A program made the position numbers and the translations under genes. Shown here one piece after another: positions 21,532 through 37,788 of a DNA stretch of 64,000 bases; position 1 is the stretch's first letter, and each line of letters opens with the position of its first letter. The notes under the pieces were generated by a model, which searched no databases, had not been told where the DNA came from, and saw only the letters and a program-made list of their open reading frames with translations. This DNA is from Methanolobus sp. ZRKC5 (GTDB lineage Archaea > Halobacteriota > Methanosarcinia > Methanosarcinales > Methanosarcinaceae), in contig NZ_CP151792.1 of the NCBI RefSeq assembly GCF_038446525.1, forward strand, positions 2,666,001 through 2,730,000, in the 5' to 3' direction.

Positions 21532-22767
21532 TTATTCTTTCATAGGCATTCCAATGGCATTTATCCCATGGATTAGCTCTGTGATTTGCTCTATTTCAAA
21601 TTCGAGAACCTCTTCTTTTGAATGGCCTATTGACATTTCACCGTCATATGTAAGCATTTCAGGTCCCCTGCGGACAAATCGTGAGATTCCGTCCCTGGAA
21701 AGCGCAGTTGTTGCTTCCGAATCATATACGAATGCTCTCCCTGGTATTATGACAGTTTCCTTGACATTTTTCAGGTCTAGTTTATTCAGGTCTTCAATGG
21801 TGATGAGGCAACCAATGTCTTTATCGACTGCAACAACATTGACGTCACTCCCAAGTTTTGTGAAGATTTCCTGAAGTCTTTGCTCAGAAGCCCTGCTGGA
21901 GAGTATCGTAGCGTCTTTTCTTAGCTCGGGAAGTTTGACAAGGGCTTCCTTTTCATTGCGTATGGCGTATGGGGAGCCGATGAGTGGGTCTTCGAGTGGT
22001 GTTCCTGTGATGCGTAGATTATGTTTTGAAGCAGCATCGCGGACGATTTGTGTGAATTCATCTATGCCGTGTGTTTCAATACCTTCCATGACCGGGGCAT
22101 TGTTAAGTATGAGCCCTTCTTCAGTCTTGTTGGCAAAGCGCATGAGTATCGCTCCTTTTGCTCCCATTTCCACAAGGTCAGTCAATGTTTTTTCGAGTAC
22201 TTCTCCGTCATTGACTCCGGGGATAAGGACAATTGCGGCATATACGTCACAATGCTGGCAGAGCTGGCGGAGCACTTTAAGTGCGGCTTCAGGTTCAGGG
22301 TCACGCATGTATTTCCTTCTAAGCTCCGGGTCAGTTGCAAATACGGTGAATGAAACTTCTGTTACTCCGTGTTCTATTAAGAATTCAGCTTCATCTCCTT
22401 TGCTGAATCCTTTACCGCTTGTATATCCCAGATGAATGGGTAATTCGAATTGTGCCAGATTGGCGATAAGTTCCATGAGATCGGGATAACAACTCACATC
22501 TCCGCCACCACTGATGGTTATCTTGTCGACATCCGCGGAGTTCATTTTAAGTTTCTGGTAAAGTTCCTGAAACACATATTGTCCTGGTTTGAAACCTGAA
22601 TAGGCTTCCCTTATACCTCTGGTGCAGTAGTCACAACCTTTTTTGAAGGGAAGGCAGTATTTGCATCCAAAAGGAGGATTTTCTTTTACTTTCTTAAAAT
22701 AACAATAGGTACAGAATCCTTTGCAATCGATTCCCGGATTGCCTCCTACGTCAGCGATGATTTCCAT
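21532..22767 (-). CDS. mmp10: Methanogenesis marker protein 10 (radical SAM, McrA arginine methyltransferase)
   Basis: The 411-residue protein has the radical SAM cluster motif CKGFCTYC near residues 16-23, extra cysteines in [15 protein letters not shown], and the [11 protein letters not shown] segment. This is the Mmp10 family, a cobalamin-dependent radical SAM enzyme that C-methylates a conserved arginine of McrA in other methanogens. The likely target is present in this McrA (residue about 285, in [14 protein letters not shown]). The gene is divergent from mcrB with 369 bases between them, which fits a dedicated modification role. Confidence 0.93.
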
Positions 22768-23136: not shown

Positions 23137-24441
23137 GTGTCTGACACAATAGACATTTACGACGACAGAGGTAAACTGTTGGAAAGTGGCGTTGATCTTT
23201 TAGCTATCGCGCCAACCAGAAACGCAGCGATTCAAAATATCATTAAAGACACCAAGAGGACTGTTGCAGTAAATCTCGCAGGTATCGAGAAATCACTGAA
23301 AACCGGTGCTATGGGTGGAGCAAAAAAGCAGATCCTTGGTAGGGAACTTGACTACGATATTGTAGGCAATTCCGGTGCAATCATGGACGCAGTAAAGAAA
23401 CTCGTAAGCGTAAGCGACGATGACGACACCAATGTAAAGGAACTTGGTGGCGGAAAGCAGCTGATCGTTCAGATCCCAACCGTAAGGACACAGATCGGTG
23501 CTGACTACGTATCCGGAAGTACCGTAACCGGTGCAGCAGTAGTTCAGACAATCATTGACATGTTCAACACTGACATGTTCGATGCACCAATAGTAAAGTC
23601 CGCTGTATGGGGAAGCTATCCACAGACAATGGACATGAAAGGCGCAAACATCGCATCCATTCTCAGTATCCCACAGAACAACGAAGGTCTTGGTTACTCA
23701 CTGAGAAACATCACAACAAACCACGTAGCAGCAATTACCGGCAAGAAGGCAATGAATGCAGCAGCACTCTCATCCATCTTCGAGCAGGTAGGTATGTACG
23801 AGATGGGTAACGCTGTAGGTCCTTTCGAGAGACACCAGTTACTTGGTCTTGCATATCAGGGTCTTAACGCAGGCAACTACGTTTACGACATCGTAAAAGA
23901 GAACGGTAAGAACGGTACAATCGGTACTGTTATTCAGTCCACAGTTGACAGAGCTCTTGAAGCAGGTGTCATCTCCGTAGACAAGACTGCACCATCCGGA
24001 TACAACTTCTACAAGGCAAACGACGTTTCCATGTGGAATGCATGTGCATCAGCAGGTCAGCTTGCAGCAACCATGGTAAACTGTGCAGCAGGCAGAGCAG
24101 CTCAGAACGTATCCTCAACCATCCTCTACTTCAACGATATGCTTGAGAAGGAAACAGGTCTTCCAGGCTGTGACATGGGTAGAGCACAGGGTACTGCAGT
24201 AGGATTCTCATTCTTCAGTCACTCCATCTATGGTGGCGGCGGACCGGGTATCTTCAACGGTAACCACGTTGTAACCAGACACTCAAGAGGTTTTGCAATT
24301 CCTTGTGTATGTGCAGCAGTCTCACTTGATGCAGGCACACAGATGTCAACAGTTGAGAAGACATCATCACTTGTCGGTAACGTATTTGGATCCATTCCAG
24401 AGTTCAAGGAACCAATCAAGGCAGTGGCAGGTGCGCTCTAA
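23137..24441 (+). CDS. mcrB: Methyl-coenzyme M reductase, beta subunit
   Basis: The 434-residue McrB starts at GTG, 9 bases after a strong AGGAGG. Family landmarks include [16 protein letters not shown] and [18 protein letters not shown], followed by [20 protein letters not shown], which lines the active-site channel. McrB pairs with McrA and McrG in the (alpha-beta-gamma)2 hexamer that holds two F430 cofactors and makes methane from methyl-coenzyme M and coenzyme B. The gene opens the operon in the usual order mcrBDCGA. Codon use is strongly biased, as expected for one of the most abundant proteins in a methanogen. Confidence 0.98.
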
Positions 24442-24491
24442 GACTAAATCTCCCTCCTTAAATATCACATTAAATGAAAAAGGTAGCAAAA

Positions 24492-24989
24492 ATGTCCGAA
24501 GCTTTCTCCGACGCAAATATTGTGCAGCTTGAAATATTTCCTTCAAGACTGTTGAAACCCGAAACAGCTCAATCATTACTCAGTGAGATGGCTGAAATCG
24601 AAGGCATCATAAGGCTGTTCATTCATGGCCCCCGACTTCCACAGACCGTTCCATACGGACCTGCCACAGGACTTCCTGTGAATCATTCCGGGAACACTGT
24701 TATCGAAGTTGCAGGTCAGGCGATAGAACTTGCTGTAAGCGTTGGTAGCATTCGAATGGAAGTTGTCGATGCTGATACAAAAGGGCGTGTAAGGGACATT
24801 TGTGAGCGAGTTCTTCCTGTATCATTTGAATTCCGGGAAGGTAATTTCATTCCAAGGAGACAGACTGTAAGCGATTATGCTAAACGTGGACCAGATGCTG
24901 ATCCTCTGATGACTGGAATGACAGATCCCAAAGGAAAACTGAAGAACCAGCCAGTATGTATCCTTAAACCTGAAATCAAAGACGAGTGA
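24492..24989 (+). CDS. mcrD: Methyl-coenzyme M reductase operon protein D
   Basis: This non-subunit protein of about 165 residues associates with Mcr in other methanogens and is proposed to help assembly or activation. It has the characteristic IEIFPSRLLKPETAQ-like opening and the GPRLPQTVPYGPATGLPVNH segment. I prefer the ATG at 24492 because AAAGGT lies just upstream; the ATG at 24474 adds six residues without a site. It sits 50 bases after mcrB. Confidence 0.93.
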   Translation: MSEAFSDANIVQLEIFPSRLLKPETAQSLLSEMAEIEGIIRLFIHGPRLPQTVPYGPATGLPVNHSGNTVIEVAGQAIELAVSVGSIRMEVVDADTKGRVRDICERVLPVSFEFREGNFIPRRQTVSDYAKRGPDADPLMTGMTDPKGKLKNQPVCILKPEIKDE

Positions 24990-24993
24990 TAGC

Positions 24994-25596
24994 ATGTTTG
25001 ATCGGGAAACGCAGGTTGTTGATTGCAGACACGGAATGGGTCTTGGCAGAGGAGGAGGTCTTGCACAGCGTGGCACTCTTTCCGAAACTGGCAGGCCTGA
25101 TGTGATTGCAGTTGCAATGAGTCCCGGTAGAAGACATATCACAAAACCCGTTTGTGAATTAACATACGGGATGCGTCGAGAGGAAATCCAGGTTAGTGTG
25201 CTTGTGCTGAACACCGGTTCAGGTGTTCCGGATACCAATATGGGTTCCGGCTCTTTTGGAATGAGTCCTGAAGAGATCGCACAGATAAACAGGCATAAAG
25301 TTGCTGTTATCCACACAGGGAACATAAGGGATCATGTAGTGAGGAAGGTAAAGAAAATACTTGAGGAAGCAAATATTCCTGCAGTAGTTGTTTGCCAGAC
25401 CCTTGTTGATTTTGAAGATTTCGCAAAGGCAGGAGTAAAGACAAAACTTGTGAAACCAAAGGATAGTGATATTTTAACAAAAGGAAGGGTAATGGAAATT
25501 GTGACAGGAGTGACACGAGGCGAATCATGCTCGAGAGAAAAACTGAACGAACTCGTGAAAGCCGTGAAAACCACAATGAGATCATTAGAGAATTAG
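24994..25596 (+). CDS. mcrC: Methyl-coenzyme M reductase operon protein C
   Basis: The 200-residue McrC has the family core CRHGMGLGRGGGLAQRGT near residue 12 and LNTGSGVPDTNMGSGSFG near residue 75. McrC has been found as part of the ATP-dependent Mcr-activation complex in hydrogenotrophic methanogens. The ATG at 24994 follows the mcrD stop by four bases, and GAGTGAT in the mcrD end can act as the ribosome site. Confidence 0.95.
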   Translation: MFDRETQVVDCRHGMGLGRGGGLAQRGTLSETGRPDVIAVAMSPGRRHITKPVCELTYGMRREEIQVSVLVLNTGSGVPDTNMGSGSFGMSPEEIAQINRHKVAVIHTGNIRDHVVRKVKKILEEANIPAVVVCQTLVDFEDFAKAGVKTKLVKPKDSDILTKGRVMEIVTGVTRGESCSREKLNELVKAVKTTMRSLEN

Positions 25597-25608
25597 GAGT
25601 GAATAATT

Positions 25609-26358
25609 ATGGCATATGAACCACAATATTATCCAGGAGCAACATCAGTTGCTGAAAATAGAAGAAAACACATGTCCGGCAAAGTGGAGAAACTTAGAGA
25701 TATCTCCGACGATGACCTGACACTTGTTCTCGGACACCGTGCACCAGGTAGTGACTACCCAAGCACTCACCCACCACTTGCAGAAATGGGCGAACCAGAA
25801 TGTTCAGTCAGAGAAATGGTAGAACCAACACCAGGCGCAAAAGCTGGTGACAGAATAAGGTATGTGCAGTTCGTTGACTCAATGTACAACGCACCATCAA
25901 CACCATACTTCAGATCCTACGCAGCAGCAATTAACTTCAGAGGTGTCGACCCAGGTACACTTTCCGGGCGTCAGGTCGTTGAAGCTCGTGAAAGAGACAT
26001 GGAAGAACTCGCAAAGTTCCAGATGGAAACTGAAATGACCTGCCCAGCACTCGCAAGTCTTAGAGGCGCAACAGTACACGGTCACTCACTCAGACTTCCA
26101 GAAGACGGTGTAATGTTTGACATGCTTGAAAGGTGCAGAAAAGAAGGCGATGTAATCACAATGCACAAGGACCAGGTAGGAAGACCAATCGATAAGAAGG
26201 TTGACCTCGGAAAACCAATGTCTGCAGAAGAAGCAGCAAAGAGAACAACCATATACCGTGTTGACAACGTTGCATTCAGAGACGACGCAGAAGTCATTGA
26301 ATGGGTACACAGGGTATTCGATAAGAGAACCATTTATGGTTTTAAGCCGGAAAACTGA
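25609..26358 (+). CDS. mcrG: Methyl-coenzyme M reductase, gamma subunit
   Basis: This 249-residue subunit starts [19 protein letters not shown], typical of McrG, after a clear AGGAGTGA site. [20 protein letters not shown] and the [15 protein letters not shown]-type segment ([14 protein letters not shown]) are conserved family blocks. It is part of the Mcr hexamer. Ten bases separate its stop from the mcrA start. Confidence 0.98.
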
Positions 26359-26368
26359 GGTGATGACA

Positions 26369-28087
26369 ATGGCAGATGACAGACAGAGAAAGTTTGCAAA
26401 ACACATGGAGATCAAGTACACAAAAGAACATGGTACTAACAAGATGAACGGTGGAGAGATCACCGACAAGACCGTAGAGTACCACAGACTTGGTGTCGAT
26501 CAGAACCCTAGAAAATTAGAAATGAGAAAAGCTGGTGAAGCCCTCGCAGCAAAGAGAGGACTTGTCGGTTACAATCCAATGATGCACTGTGGTGGTATCC
26601 CACTCGGTCAGAGAGCACTTACCCCATCATTCCTTTCAGGAACAGATGACATGGTTGAGTTGGATGATCTTCACTACGTCAACAATGCAGCAATGCAGCA
26701 GATGTGGGATGACATCAGAAGGACCGTAATTGTCGGTATGGACATGGCACACGAGACACTCGAGAAGAGGCTCGGTATCGAAGTCACACCAGAAACAATC
26801 AACCACTACCTTGAGACACTCAACCACGCACTTCCTGGTGGGGCAGTTGTTCAGGAACACATGGTCGAGACACACCCTGCACTTGTAGATGACTGTTACG
26901 TAAAGATGTTCACCGGTGACGATGAACTTGCAGACGAGATCGACAGCCAGTTCCTTATTGACATCAACAAGGAATTCCCTGCAGAGCAGGCAGAGCAGCT
27001 CAAAGCAGCTATCGGCAAGCACTCATTCCAGGCAGCACACATCCCAACTATTGTCAGCAGAACCACAGATGGTGGTCAGACAAGCAGGTGGATGGCTATG
27101 CAGGTCGGTATGTCATTCATTTCAGCATACAGCATGTGTGCTGGTGAAGCAGCAGTAGCTGACCTTTCATACGCAGCAAAGCACGCTGGTGTTATCCAGA
27201 TGGGTGAAATGCTCCCAGCAAGACGTGCACGTGCACCAAACGAGCCTGGAGGAATTCCATTTGGACACCTCGCAGATATCGTACAAACAAGCCGTGTAGA
27301 TGCAGAAGACCCAGCACACGTAGCTCTTGAAGTAGTCGGTGCAGGATGTATGCTTTACGACCAGATCTGGCTCGGTTCATACATGTCCGGTGGTGTAGGT
27401 TTCACTCAGTACGCAACAGCAGCATACTGTAACAACATCCTTGATGACAACCTCTACTACAACGTTGACTACATCAACGACAAGTACGACGGTGCAGCAA
27501 ACAAGGGTACAGACAACAAGGTAAAGGCAAACCTCGATGTAGTAAAGGACATCGCAACAGAGTCCACCATCTACGGTATCGAGAACTACGAGAAGTACCC
27601 AACAACCCTCGAAGACCACTTCGGTGGATCTCAGAGAGCAACAAGTCTTTCCGCAGCAGCTGGTTCCGCTGTTTCAATCGCAACAGGAAACGGAAACGCT
27701 GGTCTTTCCGGATGGTACCTCAGTATGTACCTCCACAAGGAAGCACTCGGAAGACTCGGTTTCTTCGGATTCGATCTGCAGGATCAGTGTGGTGCTACAA
27801 ACGTATTCTCGTACCAGTCCGACGAAGGTCTTGCTCTTGAACTGCGTGGACCAAACTATCCAAACTACGCAATGAACGTAGGTCACCAGGGTGGATATGC
27901 AGCAATCACTTCCGGTGCACACGCAGGACGTGGAGACGCATACGCAGTCAACCCACTTGTCAAGGTCTGTTTCGCAGACAAACTCCTACCATTTGACTTC
28001 ACACAGCCAAGGAAGGAGTTCGCAAAGGGCGCACTCAAAGAGTTCGAGCCTGCTGGTGAGAGATCACTCATTATTCCAGCAAAGTAA
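26369..28087 (+). CDS. mcrA: Methyl-coenzyme M reductase, alpha subunit
   Basis: The 572-residue McrA carries all the modification sites known in methanogens. These are the N-methylhistidine region ([11 protein letters not shown]), the methylarginine at about residue 285 ([14 protein letters not shown]), and the thioglycine at about 467, with didehydro-Asp and S-methyl-Cys candidates in GFDLQDQC. It contributes the nickel-ligating glutamine and most of the catalytic pocket. I chose ATG 26369 (MADDRQRKF), which GAGGTG precedes at good spacing; ATG 26363 is two codons upstream. From about codon 403 to the stop, the gene is repeated as a broken copy at 29707-30200. Confidence 0.98.
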
Positions 28088-28100
28088 TTTTAAAACAAGT

Positions 28101-28124
28101 GCAGGCTTAATGCCTGTTACTTAC
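28101..28124 (+). terminator. mcr operon terminator hairpin
   Basis: GCAGGC (28101-28106) and GCCTGT (28112-28117) pair around the loop TTAAT; a T-rich tract follows (28127-28133). The second copy after the broken mcrA keeps the same hairpin with a compensating base-pair change, so the structure seems to have been under selection. Confidence 0.65.
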
Positions 28125-28177
28125 TCTTTTTTTGAATCTGTTTTAGCATTTTAATCTTGTTTGGTTCTTCTTTACCT

Positions 28178-28248
28178 GGTAATGCTTAAATATTGCAAAA
28201 CCATTATATTTTACACTATCAATTATTAACTTTGATTTTGTTTTCCAA
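28178..28248 (+). promoter_or_regulatory. Promoter element, copy 1 (before the small ORF and radical SAM gene)
   Basis: GGTAATGCTTAAATATTGCA and the bases after it (to AACCATT, 28205), then an AT-rich tract to TTTTCCAA (28248), match the promoters at 30302 and 35668. CTTAAATA is a plausible TATA box. The match stops just where the other two copies continue into AGGAGTGAA and the hydantoinase start codon. This copy looks like a hydantoinase promoter now driving a different gene. Confidence 0.65.
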
Positions 28249-28326: not shown

Positions 28327-28524
28327 ATGGACTCAAACGAACTGGCAAACCTTACATTAGAGGCATTCAAAGAAGATTATGACCCTGAATCCGAAATCAA
28401 AATGTTCGATATGAGGGGAAAAAAGGTCTTGAAAAAGAAAGTTGCAAATAAAAATCCATTCGAAGACCTATCCGATCACTGGTTTATGGGGAGGATGACT
28501 TTTAGAAAACTACTAATAATTTGA
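28327..28524 (+). CDS. Small ORF upstream of radical SAM enzyme (candidate precursor peptide)
   Basis: The 65-residue product is highly charged, with an acidic first half (EAFKEDYDPESEIKMFD), a Lys-rich middle (GKKVLKKKVANK), and a C-terminal LSDHWFMGRMTFRKLLII. It has no cysteine and no signal peptide. I recognise no family. Its position 37 bases upstream of a SPASM-type radical SAM gene, behind a shared promoter, is the classical arrangement of a peptide substrate and its modifying enzyme. That role is inference. The ribosome site is weak, and the abrupt C-terminus could reflect a frameshift in a longer ancestor. Confidence 0.5.
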   Translation: MDSNELANLTLEAFKEDYDPESEIKMFDMRGKKVLKKKVANKNPFEDLSDHWFMGRMTFRKLLII

Positions 28525-28561
28525 AGAACCTTAAAGGGACTTAAAAAAAGGTGCTATAAAA

Positions 28562-29704
28562 ATGTCTTTTCACGTGATGTTGATTCCCACCCTTGGCTGT
28601 CCAGGAAACTGTAGTTATTGCTGGAGTTCCGAGGAAAAATCCCCTATAATGAGCATCGAGACCATAAAAGAAGTAGTTGAATGGCTCAAAAACTTCAGAG
28701 ATGATTCGGTTACCTTTACTTTCCATGGAGGGGAACCACTCCTGGCAGGCGCGGATTTCTACAAGGAGGCTTTACCAATCCTTGTTGAAGGAGTAAAGCC
28801 GAAGAAAGTGGCTTTTGCCATACAGACCAACCTCTGGAAGATGACAGACGAAATAGCTGAAATTTTTGCGGAATATAACATTCCTATCGGTTCAAGTCTC
28901 GACGGCCCGAAAAAACTTAATGATTTCCAGAGAGGGGAAGGATATTTCGAAAAAACCATGCGTGGCTACAGGATAGCAAAAGAACACGGACTTTCCGTGA
29001 GGTTCATCACCACTTTCACCTCCTATTCTGAAAAATATAGGGATGATATTTTCAATTTTTACTTGGAAAACGGCTGGATTCTCAAGTTCCACCCTGCTCT
29101 ACCCTCTTTACGCGGTGACGAACCAGAAAAATGGGCTCTTGACCCGGAAGAATACGGCAGACTCCTAATTTACCTCTTGGACAAATACTTGGAAAACATG
29201 GACCGGATTGAAGTCATGAACATCGACCACCTTTGTAAGGGCGTATTTGGAGGCAGAGGTGCTGTCTGTACCTTCGTGGACTGTATGGGAGATGTCTTAG
29301 CCGTAGGCCCTGATGGAGGCATATATCCCTGCTATCGCTTTGTAGGCATGCCAGAATACGTAATGGGTAATGTCCACGACCATCCAAGCATTGAAGAACT
29401 TGCAAAGTCTGATGCCTGGAAGCTCATGTTCGCTTACAAAGAGTACGTGGACCAGCACTGTAAGGACTGTGCCCATATAAAATACTGCAGAGGTGGCTGC
29501 CCTTACAATGCCATAACCCCCACAGAAGGGGAAATAAAGGGAGTCGACCCCCATTGTATCTCCTATAAGATGATATTGGACGAAATAACCGAGAGGGTCA
29601 ATAACGAGATGTTTGGGGGCTCAGGCATGGAAATGGACTTCTTCCAGAACCCGATGAAACCTTCAAAGCCAGGAATAATGTCCCTGATGCTTAAGAAAAC
29701 ATGA
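28562..29704 (+). CDS. Radical SAM enzyme with SPASM domain (putative peptide modifier)
   Basis: The 380-residue enzyme begins [19 protein letters not shown], with the CxxxCxxC motif for the SAM-binding 4Fe-4S cluster at residues about 14-21. [11 protein letters not shown] follows as the second family motif. The C-terminal half has the extra cysteines of a SPASM domain: [36 protein letters not shown] and DPHCISYK, enough for two auxiliary clusters. SPASM enzymes modify peptides or proteins. It may belong to the methanogen set called the Mhun_1560 family (TIGR04083), from memory and not tested here. AGGTG precedes the ATG. Its stop codon overlaps the ATGAG that begins the junction with the duplicated mcrA tail. 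Confidence 0.85.
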
Positions 29705-29706
29705 GT

Positions 29707-30200
29707 GGTATCGAGAAGTACCCAACAATCCTCGAAGATTACTTTGGTGGATCTCAGAGAGCAACAAGTCTTTCCGCAGCAGCAGGTTCCGCTGTTTCAA
29801 TCGCAACAGGAAACGGAAACGCTGGTCTTTCCGGATGGTATCTCTTAATGTACCTGCACAAGGAAGACTCGTTTTCTTCGGATTCGATCTGCAGGATCAG
29901 TGTGGTGCAACCAACGTTCTCTCATACCAGTCCGACGAAGGTATGGCTCTTGAACTGCGTGGACCAAACTATCCAAACTACGCAATGAACGTAGGTCACC
30001 AGGGTGGATACGCAGCTATCACCTCCGGCGCACATGCTGGACGTAGAGATGCATACGCAGTCAACCCACTCGTCAAGGTCTGTTTCGCAGACAAGCTCCT
30101 GCCATTTGACTTTACAAAGCGAAGGAAGGAGTTCGCAAAGGGCGCACTCAAAGAGTTCGAGCCTGCTGGTGAGAGATCACTTGTCATCCCGGCAAAATAA
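29707..30200 (+). pseudogene. Duplicated, frameshifted 3' fragment of mcrA
   Basis: The fragment matches mcrA from 27575 to the stop at well over 90 percent by eye. It has two deletions, each between short direct repeats. Nine bases are lost next to GAGAA near 29717. Ten bases are lost next to GGAAG near 29866, which shifts the frame just before the thioglycine site. Coding changes include LEDH to LEDY, NVFSY to NVLSY and AGRGD to AGRRD. A secondary frame from ATG 29835 reads the last 108 or so McrA residues, with GFDLQDQC intact, to the native stop. Full-length McrA cannot be made. Confidence 0.92.
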
Positions 30201-30213
30201 TTTTAAAACAAGT

Positions 30214-30241
30214 GTAGGCTTTATGCCTACTACTTTTTTTT
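30214..30241 (+). terminator. Terminator hairpin after the mcrA fragment
   Basis: GTAGGC (30214-30219) and GCCTAC (30225-30230) pair around TTTAT and are followed by a long T-run. Compared with the copy after mcrA, both strands of the stem changed (C-G to T-A), so pairing is kept. Confidence 0.65.
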
Positions 30242-30301
30242 TATTCAGTACATAATTTCGTTCTCATTTCTGTTTTAACTCCATTTATTGCCTGACCTAG
30301 C

Positions 30302-30370
30302 GGATAATGCTTAAATATTGCAAAACCATTCATTTTTGCACTGTTAATTATTAACTTTGATCTTTGTTTC
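30302..30370 (+). promoter_or_regulatory. Promoter element, copy 2 (before hydantoinase-like gene 1)
   Basis: GGATAATGCTTAAATATTGC and its continuation to ACCATT (30330) are nearly identical to copy 1, and the next 40 bases also align. The TATA-like CTTAAATA lies about 75 bases before the ATG. A clear AGGAGTGAA ribosome site stands next to the start codon. Confidence 0.65.
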
Positions 30371-30385
30371 TAGGAGTGAATCAAA

Positions 30386-32434
30386 ATGCAATACAGTCTG
30401 GGCATTGATGCCGGAGGAACCTTTACAGATGGGGTTATTATCCGTGATTCGGATGGTTTGATACTGGATGCTGCTAAAGTGCTGACTACATATCCAGATC
30501 CAATTGGTGGAATTAAAAAAGTAATTGATACTCTGAATCCGGATTATGTGAAAGATATAAAGCTGGTTTCTGTTTCAACAACTCTTTCGACCAATACTAT
30601 ACTAGAAGATACGGGTTTTCCAGTAGGTGTAATACTGGTTGGCGATTATGTCATTCCCAATGATGGTTTTCCTGCCCAGTACTATGTCAGACTTAGTGGT
30701 GGCCATACCAGTAATGGTGAAGAAGCCGCTCCTCTTGATGAAGAGGGAGTTAGAAATTTTGCTCTTGAAGTGAAGGACCATGTTGCAGCATTTTCAGTTT
30801 CTTCTTTTTTCAGCAATCGTAATTCAGACCATGAACTCCGTGTCAAACAGATAATTCGTGAGGTCACAGGAATGCCTGTTGTGTGCGGACATGAGCTTTC
30901 TCAGGAAGTGGGTGCCTATGACAGAGCCATTACTGCCTATCTTAATGCCCAGCTATTGCCCATTACTCACAAGTTTATTCAGTCTATTATGCAGGACATC
31001 AAGTCAAGGGGAATAGATGCTAATCTCCTCATGCTCAAATGTGACGGTTCTGTAGTGGGTATGGAAGAGGCACTTGAGCGACCAATTGAATCGATATTTT
31101 CCGGACCTGCAGCAAGTCTTGTAGGTGCTGCTTTTCTTACGAAATACCCGACATGTGCCATGGTGGACGTGGGAGGTACCAGCACAGATGTTGCTCTTAT
31201 CAGGGATGGTGTTCCGGAAATAAGTGCTCAGGGAGCCATTGTCGGTGGTTGGAAGACCATGGTAAAAGCTATAAGAATGGAAACCTCTGCCACAGGTGGC
31301 GACAGTCACATATGGGCTCAGGAACAAAAATTCTACTTAGGGCCCAGAAGGGTGATACCTCTTTGCCGTGCTGCTGTCTTGTACGCCGGTTTCCTCGACA
31401 GGCTCAAGGAATCTAAATCACCTTCCAGAAAACTTCTTTGCGAAAACATACAGGCAACAAAGTTCTTTGTGCGCACGGGCCTTAAACCTCTTGAACTCAC
31501 AAGGACTGAGGAAGAGATATATGATACTATTCAGGGAAACCCTCTTTCTTATGTAGATCTATTCCAGCGCCTGAAGAAACAGCCAAGTGTTCGTGCCCTT
31601 GACAGCCTCATACAGAAACGGCTGGTCCAGTCTATTGGTTTCACTCCTACAGATGCCCTGCATGTGCTTGGGGAGTTCAGTCTATGGGATGCAGAAGCAT
31701 CTATAATAGGGGCTGAACGACTTGCCAAGCAGTTAAGGACCAGCAAGGAAGAATTTTCAATAATGGTAAAACGGCAGGTTGCAAGGAACATGGCAAAAGA
31801 CCTTGTTTCATATCTGGTCACAGGTATACAGGACTCGGTTATTAACCAGATGCTTTCCGGGGATAACTTCACTCGTTTTAAAGTGGAAACTCCGGTGGTA
31901 TTGCTTGGTGGTCCTGTAGTTGCCTATAAAGAGGAGATGGAAAAGCTGCTTGATGCTAATATAGTTGTTCCGGAGCATGCTAATGTAGGAAATGCTGTTG
32001 GTTCTCTTGTGGGCAAAGGTATCAAGCGTGTTGAGATACTCATCAAACGGGATTTTGCTCCAATTACAGGGGCTGATGTTACGGATGAGGAGTTGAAAAA
32101 TGCCAAAGAGGTTATACAATACTTTGTTTTTTCACCAGGGGGAAGGGCCATATTCCCGCAGTATATGGATGCTTATGAATTTGCCCGTAACAGCGGTAAG
32201 AAAATAATAATGGATTATATGAAGGCAGCAGGTTACTCAAAAGATGAGGTAAACATTGAGGTGACTAAAAAGGACCTTATGACCAGAGAAGGCGAAGAAC
32301 CGGTTGAAAGTAAGGTAATTGTAGTTGGAATTGGCACATCCCGGTTGGTTGTGGAAAAAGACGTAATTCCCGATTATATGCGTAAAAAAGCCATAAGCAG
32401 CAGATCTGCTGAAAGTTCCTATTCAGGAAAATAA
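30386..32434 (+). CDS. Hydantoinase/oxoprolinase family protein, copy 1
   Basis: The 682-residue protein is HyuA-like, with an actin-type ATPase fold. The phosphate motifs are LGIDAGGTFTDGVI at residues 3-16 and AMVDVGGTSTDVALI near residue 260. Known relatives hydrolyse hydantoins or 5-oxoproline with ATP, or form part of acetone carboxylase. They usually need a HyuB-type partner, and none is encoded nearby. Function here is therefore open. The near-identical copy 2 at 35752 and a decayed third piece at 35586 show repeated local duplication. The promoter is shared with the radical SAM unit, hinting at common control. Confidence 0.85.
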   Translation: MQYSLGIDAGGTFTDGVIIRDSDGLILDAAKVLTTYPDPIGGIKKVIDTLNPDYVKDIKLVSVSTTLSTNTILEDTGFPVGVILVGDYVIPNDGFPAQYYVRLSGGHTSNGEEAAPLDEEGVRNFALEVKDHVAAFSVSSFFSNRNSDHELRVKQIIREVTGMPVVCGHELSQEVGAYDRAITAYLNAQLLPITHKFIQSIMQDIKSRGIDANLLMLKCDGSVVGMEEALERPIESIFSGPAASLVGAAFLTKYPTCAMVDVGGTSTDVALIRDGVPEISAQGAIVGGWKTMVKAIRMETSATGGDSHIWAQEQKFYLGPRRVIPLCRAAVLYAGFLDRLKESKSPSRKLLCENIQATKFFVRTGLKPLELTRTEEEIYDTIQGNPLSYVDLFQRLKKQPSVRALDSLIQKRLVQSIGFTPTDALHVLGEFSLWDAEASIIGAERLAKQLRTSKEEFSIMVKRQVARNMAKDLVSYLVTGIQDSVINQMLSGDNFTRFKVETPVVLLGGPVVAYKEEMEKLLDANIVVPEHANVGNAVGSLVGKGIKRVEILIKRDFAPITGADVTDEELKNAKEVIQYFVFSPGGRAIFPQYMDAYEFARNSGKKIIMDYMKAAGYSKDEVNIEVTKKDLMTREGEEPVESKVIVVGIGTSRLVVEKDVIPDYMRKKAISSRSAESSYSGK

Positions 32435-35667: not shown

Positions 35668-35745
35668 GGTAATGCTTAAATAGTGCAAAACCGTTTTTTA
35701 TCTGCACTTTATATATTAAAATTGATTATTTTTCCAAGGAGTGAA
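35668..35745 (+). promoter_or_regulatory. Promoter element, copy 3 (before hydantoinase-like gene 2)
   Basis: GGTAATGCTTAAATAGTGCA and its continuation (AAACCGTT to 35696) repeat the element seen at 28178 and 30302. The TATA-like word sits about 76 bases from the ATG, as in copy 2, and AAGGAGTGAA marks the ribosome site. Confidence 0.65.
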
Positions 35746-35751
35746 CTAAAA

Positions 35752-37788
35752 ATGCAATACAGTCTTGGCATTGATGCCGGAGGAACCTTTACAGACGGGG
35801 TTATTATCCGTGATTCGGATGGTGTGATACTGGATGCTGCTAAAATGCTTACTACCTATCCGGACCCTATAGGTGGAATTAAAAAAGTAATTGATTCTCT
35901 AAATCAGGATTATGTTGAAAATGTAAAACTGGTCTCAGTTTCAACCACTCTTTCTACCAATACCATACTGGAAGATACTGGTTTTCCAGTAGGTGTGATT
36001 CTGGTTGGTGATTATGTGATTCCTGATGAGGGTTTTCCTGCTAAATATTATGTTAGACTTAGTGGTGGTCATACAAGTAATGGTGAAGAAGCTGCTCCTC
36101 TTGACGAAGAGGGAGTTAAGCGATTTGCCCTTGAGGTAAAGGATCAGGTTGCAGCATTTTCTACGTCTGCATTTTTCAGCAACCGTAATTCGGAACATGA
36201 ACTCCGCGTCAAACAGATAATTCGCGAGACTACAGGGCTGCCTGTTGTATGCGGACATGAGCTTTCCCAGGAAGTTGGAGCCTATGACAGGGCTATTACC
36301 GCGTACCTTAATGCTCAGTTATTGCCAATCACACATAAGTTCATCCAATCCATTATGAAGGACATCAAGTCAAGGAATATTGATGCCAATCTTCTCATGC
36401 TCAAATGTGATGGTTCTGTAGTAGGTATGGAGGAAGCACTGGAGCGTCCCATCGAATCAATATTTTCCGGACCAGCGGCAAGTCTTGTAGGTGCTGGTTT
36501 CCTTACAAAATTCCCCACATGTGCAATGGTGGATGTGGGTGGAACCAGTACGGACGTTGCTCTCATCAGGGGTGGTGTCCCGGAAATTAGTGACCAAGGA
36601 GCTATTGTAGGTGGATGGAAGACCATGGTAAAGGCTATTAAAATGGAAACCTCTGCTACAGGTGGTGACAGCCATGTATGGGCCCAGGATCAAAAGTTCC
36701 ACGTAGGACCTAGAAGGGTGATTCCCCTTTGTCGTGCTGCAGTTGAGTATCCTGGTTTTCTTGAAAAACTTCAGACAACTAAATCTCCTTCCAGAACGCT
36801 TCTTTGCGAAAATATTCAGCCAACTAAATTCTTTGTACGCACAGATGTCCGTTCTATTGAACTTACAAAGATGGAAGAAGAGGTATATGATGTTATTCAG
36901 GGAATTCCTCTTTCTTATGTAGATATTTTCCAGCGCCTGAAGAAACAGCCAAATGTCCGTGCTATTGATGGCCTTATAAAGAAACGTTTGATACAATCTA
37001 TAGGTTTCACTCCAACTGATGCTCTGCATGTACTTGGAGATTTCAGGCAATGGGAAACGGAAGCATCCATAATAGGCGCTGAGAAACTTGGCAAACTGAC
37101 AAGGACTAAGAAGGAAGAACTCTGCAGCATGGTAAAAAGACAAGTTGCAAAGAACATGGCATATGATCTTATTTCTTACCTTATAAAAGGCATTCCGGAA
37201 TCAGTTGTTGAGGATATACTCTCCGGGGAGAATTTCACTCGTTTTAAGGTAGAGACTCCTGTTGTACTGCTTGGTGGTCCTGTTGTTGCGTATAAAGAGG
37301 AAATGGAACAACTGATAGATGCTGATATAGTTGTTCCGGAGCATGCTAATGTAGGTAATGCAGTAGGTTCTCTTGTGGGCAAAGGTATCAAGCGTGTTGA
37401 AATACTTATCAAGAGGGATTTTAATCCTGTAGTAGGGATAAACGTTGAAGATGTAGAAATGAAGGGTCCCAAAGAGGATATCCTCAATTACTTCGTGTTC
37501 TCACCAGAAGGCAGGTCCATATTCTACCAGTATATGGATGCTTATGAGTTTGCCAGGAACACCGGTGAAAAAATCATAATGAATTACATGAGGGCAGCAG
37601 GTTACTTAGAAGGAGAAGTAGATATAGAAGTAACTAAAAAGGATATTGTAGTCAGGGAAGGTGAGAAACCGGTTGAGTCTAAGATTATCGTGGTTGGGGT
37701 CGGTACATCCAATTTGGTCGTGGAAAAAAACATAATTCCTGATTATATGGGTAAAAAGGCTCTTAAACAGGGTATAAAAAGGTCTTAA
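35752..37788 (+). CDS. Hydantoinase/oxoprolinase family protein, copy 2
   Basis: The 678-residue paralogue of the gene at 30386 is nearly the same along its whole length, with both ATPase motifs intact (LGIDAGGTFTDGVI, AMVDVGGTSTDVALI). I placed the start at ATG 35752, which follows AAGGAGTGAA and matches copy 1; the longer open frame from 35683 runs back through the promoter. Differences cluster in the C-terminal third. Both copies look functional, so they may differ in substrate or simply raise dosage. No HyuB-like partner lies beside it. Confidence 0.85.
   Translation: MQYSLGIDAGGTFTDGVIIRDSDGVILDAAKMLTTYPDPIGGIKKVIDSLNQDYVENVKLVSVSTTLSTNTILEDTGFPVGVILVGDYVIPDEGFPAKYYVRLSGGHTSNGEEAAPLDEEGVKRFALEVKDQVAAFSTSAFFSNRNSEHELRVKQIIRETTGLPVVCGHELSQEVGAYDRAITAYLNAQLLPITHKFIQSIMKDIKSRNIDANLLMLKCDGSVVGMEEALERPIESIFSGPAASLVGAGFLTKFPTCAMVDVGGTSTDVALIRGGVPEISDQGAIVGGWKTMVKAIKMETSATGGDSHVWAQDQKFHVGPRRVIPLCRAAVEYPGFLEKLQTTKSPSRTLLCENIQPTKFFVRTDVRSIELTKMEEEVYDVIQGIPLSYVDIFQRLKKQPNVRAIDGLIKKRLIQSIGFTPTDALHVLGDFRQWETEASIIGAEKLGKLTRTKKEELCSMVKRQVAKNMAYDLISYLIKGIPESVVEDILSGENFTRFKVETPVVLLGGPVVAYKEEMEQLIDADIVVPEHANVGNAVGSLVGKGIKRVEILIKRDFNPVVGINVEDVEMKGPKEDILNYFVFSPEGRSIFYQYMDAYEFARNTGEKIIMNYMRAAGYLEGEVDIEVTKKDIVVREGEKPVESKIIVVGVGTSNLVVEKNIIPDYMGKKALKQGIKRS

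Follow-up and report, generated by a model that had tools for sequence, protein, structure and literature searches.

The radical SAM/SPASM enzyme encoded downstream of mcrA in Methanolobus sp. ZRKC5 very probably acts on McrA, the alpha subunit of methyl-coenzyme M reductase (MCR), and not on a small peptide, as suggested by its recurrent linkage to mcrA and to genes for known McrA modifiers; somewhat less firmly, we consider this enzyme to be the probable McrA didehydroaspartate synthase. MCR makes nearly all biological methane. Didehydroaspartate in MCR was reported in 2016, and in the papers on MCR modifications that we consulted, no enzyme is named for its formation.

The window analyzed here, 64,000 nucleotides of contig NZ_CP151792.1, contains mcrB, mcrD, mcrC, and mcrG (ORFs at 23137-26358, plus strand), of which mcrC and mcrD were recognized by TIGR03264 and TIGR03260, whereas mcrB and mcrG were assigned from their position and from homology. 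These genes are followed by the proposed substrate gene, mcrA (26369-28087, plus strand; TIGR03256, 1001 bits), the product of which is 72% identical to the McrA of Methermicoccus. Codon 27782-27784 (plus strand) of mcrA specifies the aspartate of the GFDLQDQC motif, by alignment the equivalent of Asp470 of M. acetivorans McrA. Beside the operon, on the minus strand, lies mmp10 (21532-22767; TIGR03278, 614 bits), which encodes a known McrA modifier, the radical SAM arginine C-methyltransferase.

The gene at 28562-29704 (plus strand), with the ribosome-binding site (RBS) AAAGGTG ahead of its ATG, encodes a protein of 380 amino acids that matches the NCBIfam profile TIGR04083 with 696.8 bits (curated cut-off, 300 bits) over profile positions 1-376 of 376 and is, thus, a member of this family. 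The database label of TIGR04083 is that of a peptide-modifying radical SAM enzyme, a hypothetical equivalog; no paper among those searched mentions the family. The Pfam matches of the protein are Radical_SAM and SPASM. The SAM-cluster motif is C13xxxC17xxC20, and eight more cysteines (C236, C241, C257, C300, C303, C309, C313, and C332) form a set that matches two auxiliary [4Fe-4S] clusters; in an alignment of 36 TIGR04083 orthologs, 11 of the 11 cluster cysteines are invariant. By the CxxxCxxC motif together with the SPASM cysteines, the protein belongs to the radical SAM/SPASM enzymes.

Small peptides encoded upstream are frequent substrates of SPASM enzymes. An earlier note on this DNA had read the 65-codon ORF at 28327-28524 (plus strand, ATG start), directly upstream of the SPASM enzyme gene, as the precursor in a RiPP-like pair. 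Both the ORF and the gene are present where that note placed them, and the ORF is, as it said, lysine-rich and free of cysteine. However, the length of the ORF is within chance expectation: in dinucleotide shuffles of the 474-nt spacer, a frame of 65 codons or more appeared in 13% of the cases when all six frames and any start were allowed, in 6% on the plus strand alone, and in 2% on the plus strand with ATG. No RBS is apparent before the ATG of the ORF, where the sequence is TCAGCTCTGGTATG. A tblastn search with the 65-amino acid sequence against 27 loci produced no coding homolog, and comparison with NCBIfam and Pfam produced no family match above any cut-off.

The upstream regions of orthologs were compared, namely those of the nine further carriers in the genus and of about 50 additional orthologs from Methanosarcina, Methanomethylovorans, ANME-2, Methanothrix, and others. 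No homolog of the ORF was found adjoining these approximately 60 orthologous genes, and wherever the DNA could be aligned, the closest relatives included, the frame is broken by single-nucleotide indels or stop codons (L044, L013, L006, and L052). Both outcomes that the earlier note had named as refuting its reading, a lack of conservation beside homologous radical SAM genes and frameshifted versions in close strains, were thus observed. The likeness among the upstream regions is confined to the last ~100 bases and is centered on GAAAACTAYTAATANTTTGAAGAA. Within 700 nt of about 50 orthologs, no conserved small ORF was found except for readings of mcrA, which are out of frame with that gene, and a divergent gene restricted to Methanosarcina. 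CteB, ChlB, and PapB, which are radical SAM/SPASM maturases of RiPPs, belong to the same superfamily as TIGR04083 by sequence and fold; unlike the case of these maturases, no precursor gene is conserved near the TIGR04083 orthologs examined. The reading of the ORF as a substrate peptide is already refuted by this lack of coding conservation, and the probability that we would assign to it is negligible. We judge the ORF to be a chance reading frame and not a gene. The divergent gene, of the RLRARNGQIIAVSQGYKSKEGC type, lies on the minus strand in several Methanosarcina (L050-L055) and was not seen outside this genus; it resembles DUF1508.

A further point against the ORF being a precursor gene is that its end, namely its last 20 nucleotides, overlaps a promoter-like element. 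This conserved non-coding element, GAAAACTAYTAATANTTTGAAGAA (28505-28528, plus strand), lies ~50-57 nt before the ATG of the radical SAM gene and occurs, at zero mismatches, only once in the genome. The search matched 50 distinct upstream regions, and in 49 of these the element is located 43-65 nt ahead of the start codon, where an archaeal BRE/TATA promoter would be positioned. The possibility that the conserved stretch encodes a short peptide, with the recurring reading KT[IT]N[TSN]LK, was considered and rejected: single-nucleotide indels in L048 and L068 and a 9-nt insertion in L030 rule out a coding role, and the reading is also broken by an in-frame TAG. An Rfam search returned no match. 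Given its position, the element is probably a BRE/TATA-type promoter of the radical SAM gene with an operator-like core, so that the gene would be transcribed from a promoter of its own that begins shortly before the chance ORF stops. The core is palindromic (AAACTATTAATAGTTT in L022), and the element is retained across Methanosarcina, Methanolobus, ANME-2, and Methanothrix (window 28505-28528; L022, L043-L079). Such wide conservation is unusual for a plain archaeal promoter, and a dedicated regulator may bind this element.

Downstream of mcrA, a terminator-like hairpin, GCAGGCTTAATGCCTG, with a T-rich tract (28101-28133, plus strand) is recognizable in the sequence. A terminator scan of the plus strand lists only a copy of this hairpin, at 30214-30230; at 28101-28133, the T-run starts later. 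The hairpin at 28101-28133 is the probable boundary between the mcr operon and the radical SAM gene, which therefore probably has a transcript separate from that of the operon.

The alternative substrate named in the earlier note, McrA itself, is strongly supported by the genomic context of TIGR04083, namely its recurrence behind mcrA, mostly on the same strand, in members of five families and its adjacency to known McrA modifiers. We identified TIGR04083 in 151 of the 238 genomes of the class and in 167 of the 391 genomes sampled over the phylum. Among the 144 genomes in which both TIGR04083 and mcrA could be positioned, the two genes lie within 10 kb of each other in 25, compared to approximately one expected by chance for genomes of 2-5 Mb; these counts come from genomes that are not independent observations. 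TIGR04083 is downstream of mcrA in all 27 cases within 20 kb and on the same strand in 25 of these. The linked pairs span seven genera in five families, with differing spacing and orientation, and include 10 of the 10 carriers in the genus of the window, ANME-2d, Methanotrichaceae, and two families of Methanomicrobia. Recurrent linkage to the mcr operon, our criterion for the McrA-modifying class, is thus observed for TIGR04083. Mapped on a tree built from the McrA sequences of 71 genomes, the occurrence of TIGR04083 changes at least seven to eight times; therefore, the gene was gained or lost repeatedly. One genome (G117) shows a weak TIGR04083 match (E 5e-62) that was not counted as being over the cut-off, and its McrA is nearly equal to that of a carrier (G036); this is possibly a recently broken copy, in which case the modification is predicted to be lost.

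The company of TIGR04083 includes two other radical SAM enzymes. Like TIGR04083, Mmp10/MamA (TIGR03278) is encoded beside mcr; in the window, the operon lies between the two, and in several Methanotrichaceae they directly adjoin, Mmp10 being the immediate upstream neighbor of TIGR04083 in the Methanothrix-type loci L075, L077, and L078. In another member of this family (L190, G198), three radical SAM enzymes are encoded in a row, in the order mcr, MgmA, Mmp10, TIGR04083. MgmA (TIGR04014; 646 bits in L190) is the McrA glutamine C-methyltransferase, a radical SAM enzyme responsible for a variable McrA modification (PMC11796369). Mmp10 is a cobalamin-dependent methylase that is nearly universal in methanogens, and MgmA is a methylase of the B12 type that differs from TIGR04083 in domain architecture and product, whereas TIGR04083 is patchily distributed and contains a SPASM domain and no Pfam match to a cobalamin-binding domain. 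Neither TIGR03278 nor TIGR04014 is among the best 25 NCBIfam matches of the enzyme, and we rejected the possibility that it is a cobalamin-dependent methylase of the Mmp10/MgmA type. In two ANME-2d loci (L187:10142-12295 in G084 and L188:7837-9993 in G086), a radical SAM protein of 718 amino acids is encoded between mcrA and TIGR04083. This protein is most similar to C-methyltransferases of the B12 type, with matches to TIGR04479 and TIGR03975 below the cut-off, and is a candidate source of the 3(S)-methylhistidine of McrG, a modification found so far on ANME-2d McrG only (PMC12413448).

The linkage is not universal. In the Methanosarcina genomes in which it was located, the TIGR04083 gene is not near mcr, and it is also unlinked in many Methanomicrobia. 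Such a distribution, together with the conserved promoter-like element of its own, would be compatible with an enzyme that is co-regulated near mcr and modifies an MCR assembly or maturation protein, such as McrC, McrD, or an activation factor, or else an unlinked protein. We regard this as distinctly improbable because the presence and absence of TIGR04083 track the known data on didehydroaspartate, as described below, and several carriers, L186-L188 among them, showed no mcrC in their mcr operons.

Assuming that McrA is the substrate, the modification was sought by co-occurrence and elimination. Didehydroaspartate, which in M. acetivorans McrA is located at Asp470 (PMC7058361), has been mapped in M. 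marburgensis, M. barkeri, M. acetivorans, ANME-2c, and ANME-2d and has been excluded in M. wolfeii, M. kandleri, Methanotorris, Methanothermococcus, Methermicoccus, ANME-1, and Ca. Ethanoperedens. We tied genomes to the mapped enzymes by comparing McrA with PDB sequences. TIGR04083 is present in G152 and G156, in which McrA is identical to 8gf5 (M. acetivorans) and 1e6y (M. barkeri), respectively, and in G041 and G042, in which McrA is close to 9qm5 (ANME-2c) and 9qqt/9qr1 (ANME-2d), respectively; all four of these reference enzymes contain didehydroaspartate. In G039, with a McrA identical to 7b1s (Ca. Ethanoperedens), from which the modification is absent, only a weak radical SAM match was detected, and this genome is not among the TIGR04083 carriers. 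The gene distribution thus agrees with the modification maps in all five of the mapped cases for which a genome could be compared (G152, G156, G041, G042, and G039). In M. acetivorans McrA, only two modifications, N1-methyl-His and didehydro-Asp, are without an assigned enzyme; the atomic-resolution structures of ANME-2 MCR list seven modifications. N1-methyl-His occurs also in Ca. Ethanoperedens, which lacks TIGR04083, and 6-hydroxy-Trp is missing from Methanosarcina, which carries TIGR04083. Because these two modifications fail the distribution test, didehydro-Asp remains.

Linkage to mcr and the company of Mmp10 and MgmA indicate a relationship to MCR in general, and M. marburgensis, too, has didehydroaspartate; hence TIGR04083 might modify McrA or another MCR subunit at a residue other than Asp470 or in a way not yet described. 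This appears unlikely, given that, of the seven ANME-2 modifications, didehydro-Asp alone occurs in Methanosarcina as well, is missing in Ca. Ethanoperedens, and has no assigned enzyme. With the M. marburgensis McrA (PDB 1hbm) as a probe, no Methanothermobacter genome was found in the phylum searched, where the highest McrA identity was 70%; if M. marburgensis makes didehydroaspartate without TIGR04083, this species must use another enzyme for the purpose. The aspartate of the G-[FY]-D-L-Q-D-Q-C motif is invariant in every McrA aligned, in carriers and non-carriers alike, and McrA sequences, therefore, cannot confirm the modification site. Within the genus, a single McrA column, Y/F at position 526, tracks the presence of TIGR04083, a pattern explicable by common descent.

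The chemistry that didehydroaspartate synthesis would require has a parallel in the anaerobic sulfatase-maturating enzymes (anSMEs). The AlphaFold model of the TIGR04083 enzyme (pLDDT 82) has its best PDB match in anSMEcpe, which is the closest solved relative by both sequence and fold (PDB 4k36-4k39; TM-score about 0.75-0.8, 24% identity, E 5e-29 for 4k37). Both proteins combine a radical SAM core with a SPASM domain and share the same pattern of 3 + 8 cysteines. The enzyme anSMEcpe performs a two-electron oxidation of Cys or Ser, with the SPASM clusters assisting, and we propose that both enzymes oxidize a protein residue by two electrons. This affinity to the closest characterized family could mean that the TIGR04083 enzyme is itself an anSME that makes formylglycine. 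We consider such a function highly improbable: the score of the enzyme against TIGR03942, the anSME family, is 188.6 bits, far under the cut-off of 349.45 bits; the catalytic base of anSME, Asp277, is replaced by Tyr258, which is invariant in the 36 orthologs; and the neighbors and distribution of TIGR04083, which is linked to mcr in the loci examined, point to McrA rather than to sulfatases. Membership in the anSME family was accordingly rejected. With all 11 cysteines retained but Asp277 replaced by Tyr258, the enzyme may be a dehydrogenase that follows the anSME mode of action but does not belong to that family.

The substrate, the residue, and the chemistry of the TIGR04083 enzyme are our inference, and the mechanism is proposed by analogy with the anSMEs. 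If McrA is modified before assembly, as we assume, the CxxxCxxC cluster would cleave SAM to yield the 5'-deoxyadenosyl radical, which would take one hydrogen from the alpha or beta carbon of the residue specified by codon 27782-27784, the aspartate of G-[FY]-D-L-Q-D-Q-C. Transfer of an electron to an auxiliary cluster and deprotonation would then generate the double bond, so that the aspartate would be dehydrogenated to didehydroaspartate. TIGR04083 would be, with the same probability that we attach to its role as the synthase, a SPASM dehydrogenase that desaturates an aspartate of McrA and the first McrA modifier that is neither a methylase nor a thioamidating system.

The site of the gene in the genus of the window is variable. 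In most of the non-carriers, mcrA is followed by a hydantoinase-like gene and then aroA, which represents the empty site (L199, L200, L204, and others); in the carriers, TIGR04083 lies between mcrA and the hydantoinase-like gene. In the window, the right side of the insertion site is a gene for a hydantoinase/oxoprolinase-like protein (30386-32434, plus strand; PF01968, PF05378). Ahead of it, a decayed duplicate of the 3' end of mcrA and its downstream flank (29712-30369, plus strand) is 86% identical to 27589-28243 and carries a 10-nt deletion in its coding part. The radical SAM cassette is, thus, flanked by a direct repeat of ~655 nt that consists of the 3' region of mcrA and the decayed copy, the arrangement to be expected after integration by a single crossover. 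Elsewhere in the genus, carriers with a closely following hydantoinase-like gene, such as L220, show no sign of the repeat in the spacing. The window contains a second hydantoinase/oxoprolinase-like gene (35683-37788) that is 81% identical in DNA to the one at 30386-32434; aroA, a small gene, and htpX lie between the two, and one such gene follows mcrA in most of the genus.

In M. acetivorans, a genetically tractable organism, the TIGR04083 gene at about 4,090,849-4,091,973 of the G152 contig is a named candidate for didehydroaspartate synthesis. If TIGR04083 is the McrA didehydroaspartate synthase, the patchy occurrence of this modification, even among close relatives, would be accounted for. 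The desaturation of a residue would join the known reactions of SPASM enzymes on full-size proteins, in this case, a housekeeping enzyme. The identification would also bear on the expression of methanotrophic MCRs with their native modifications.
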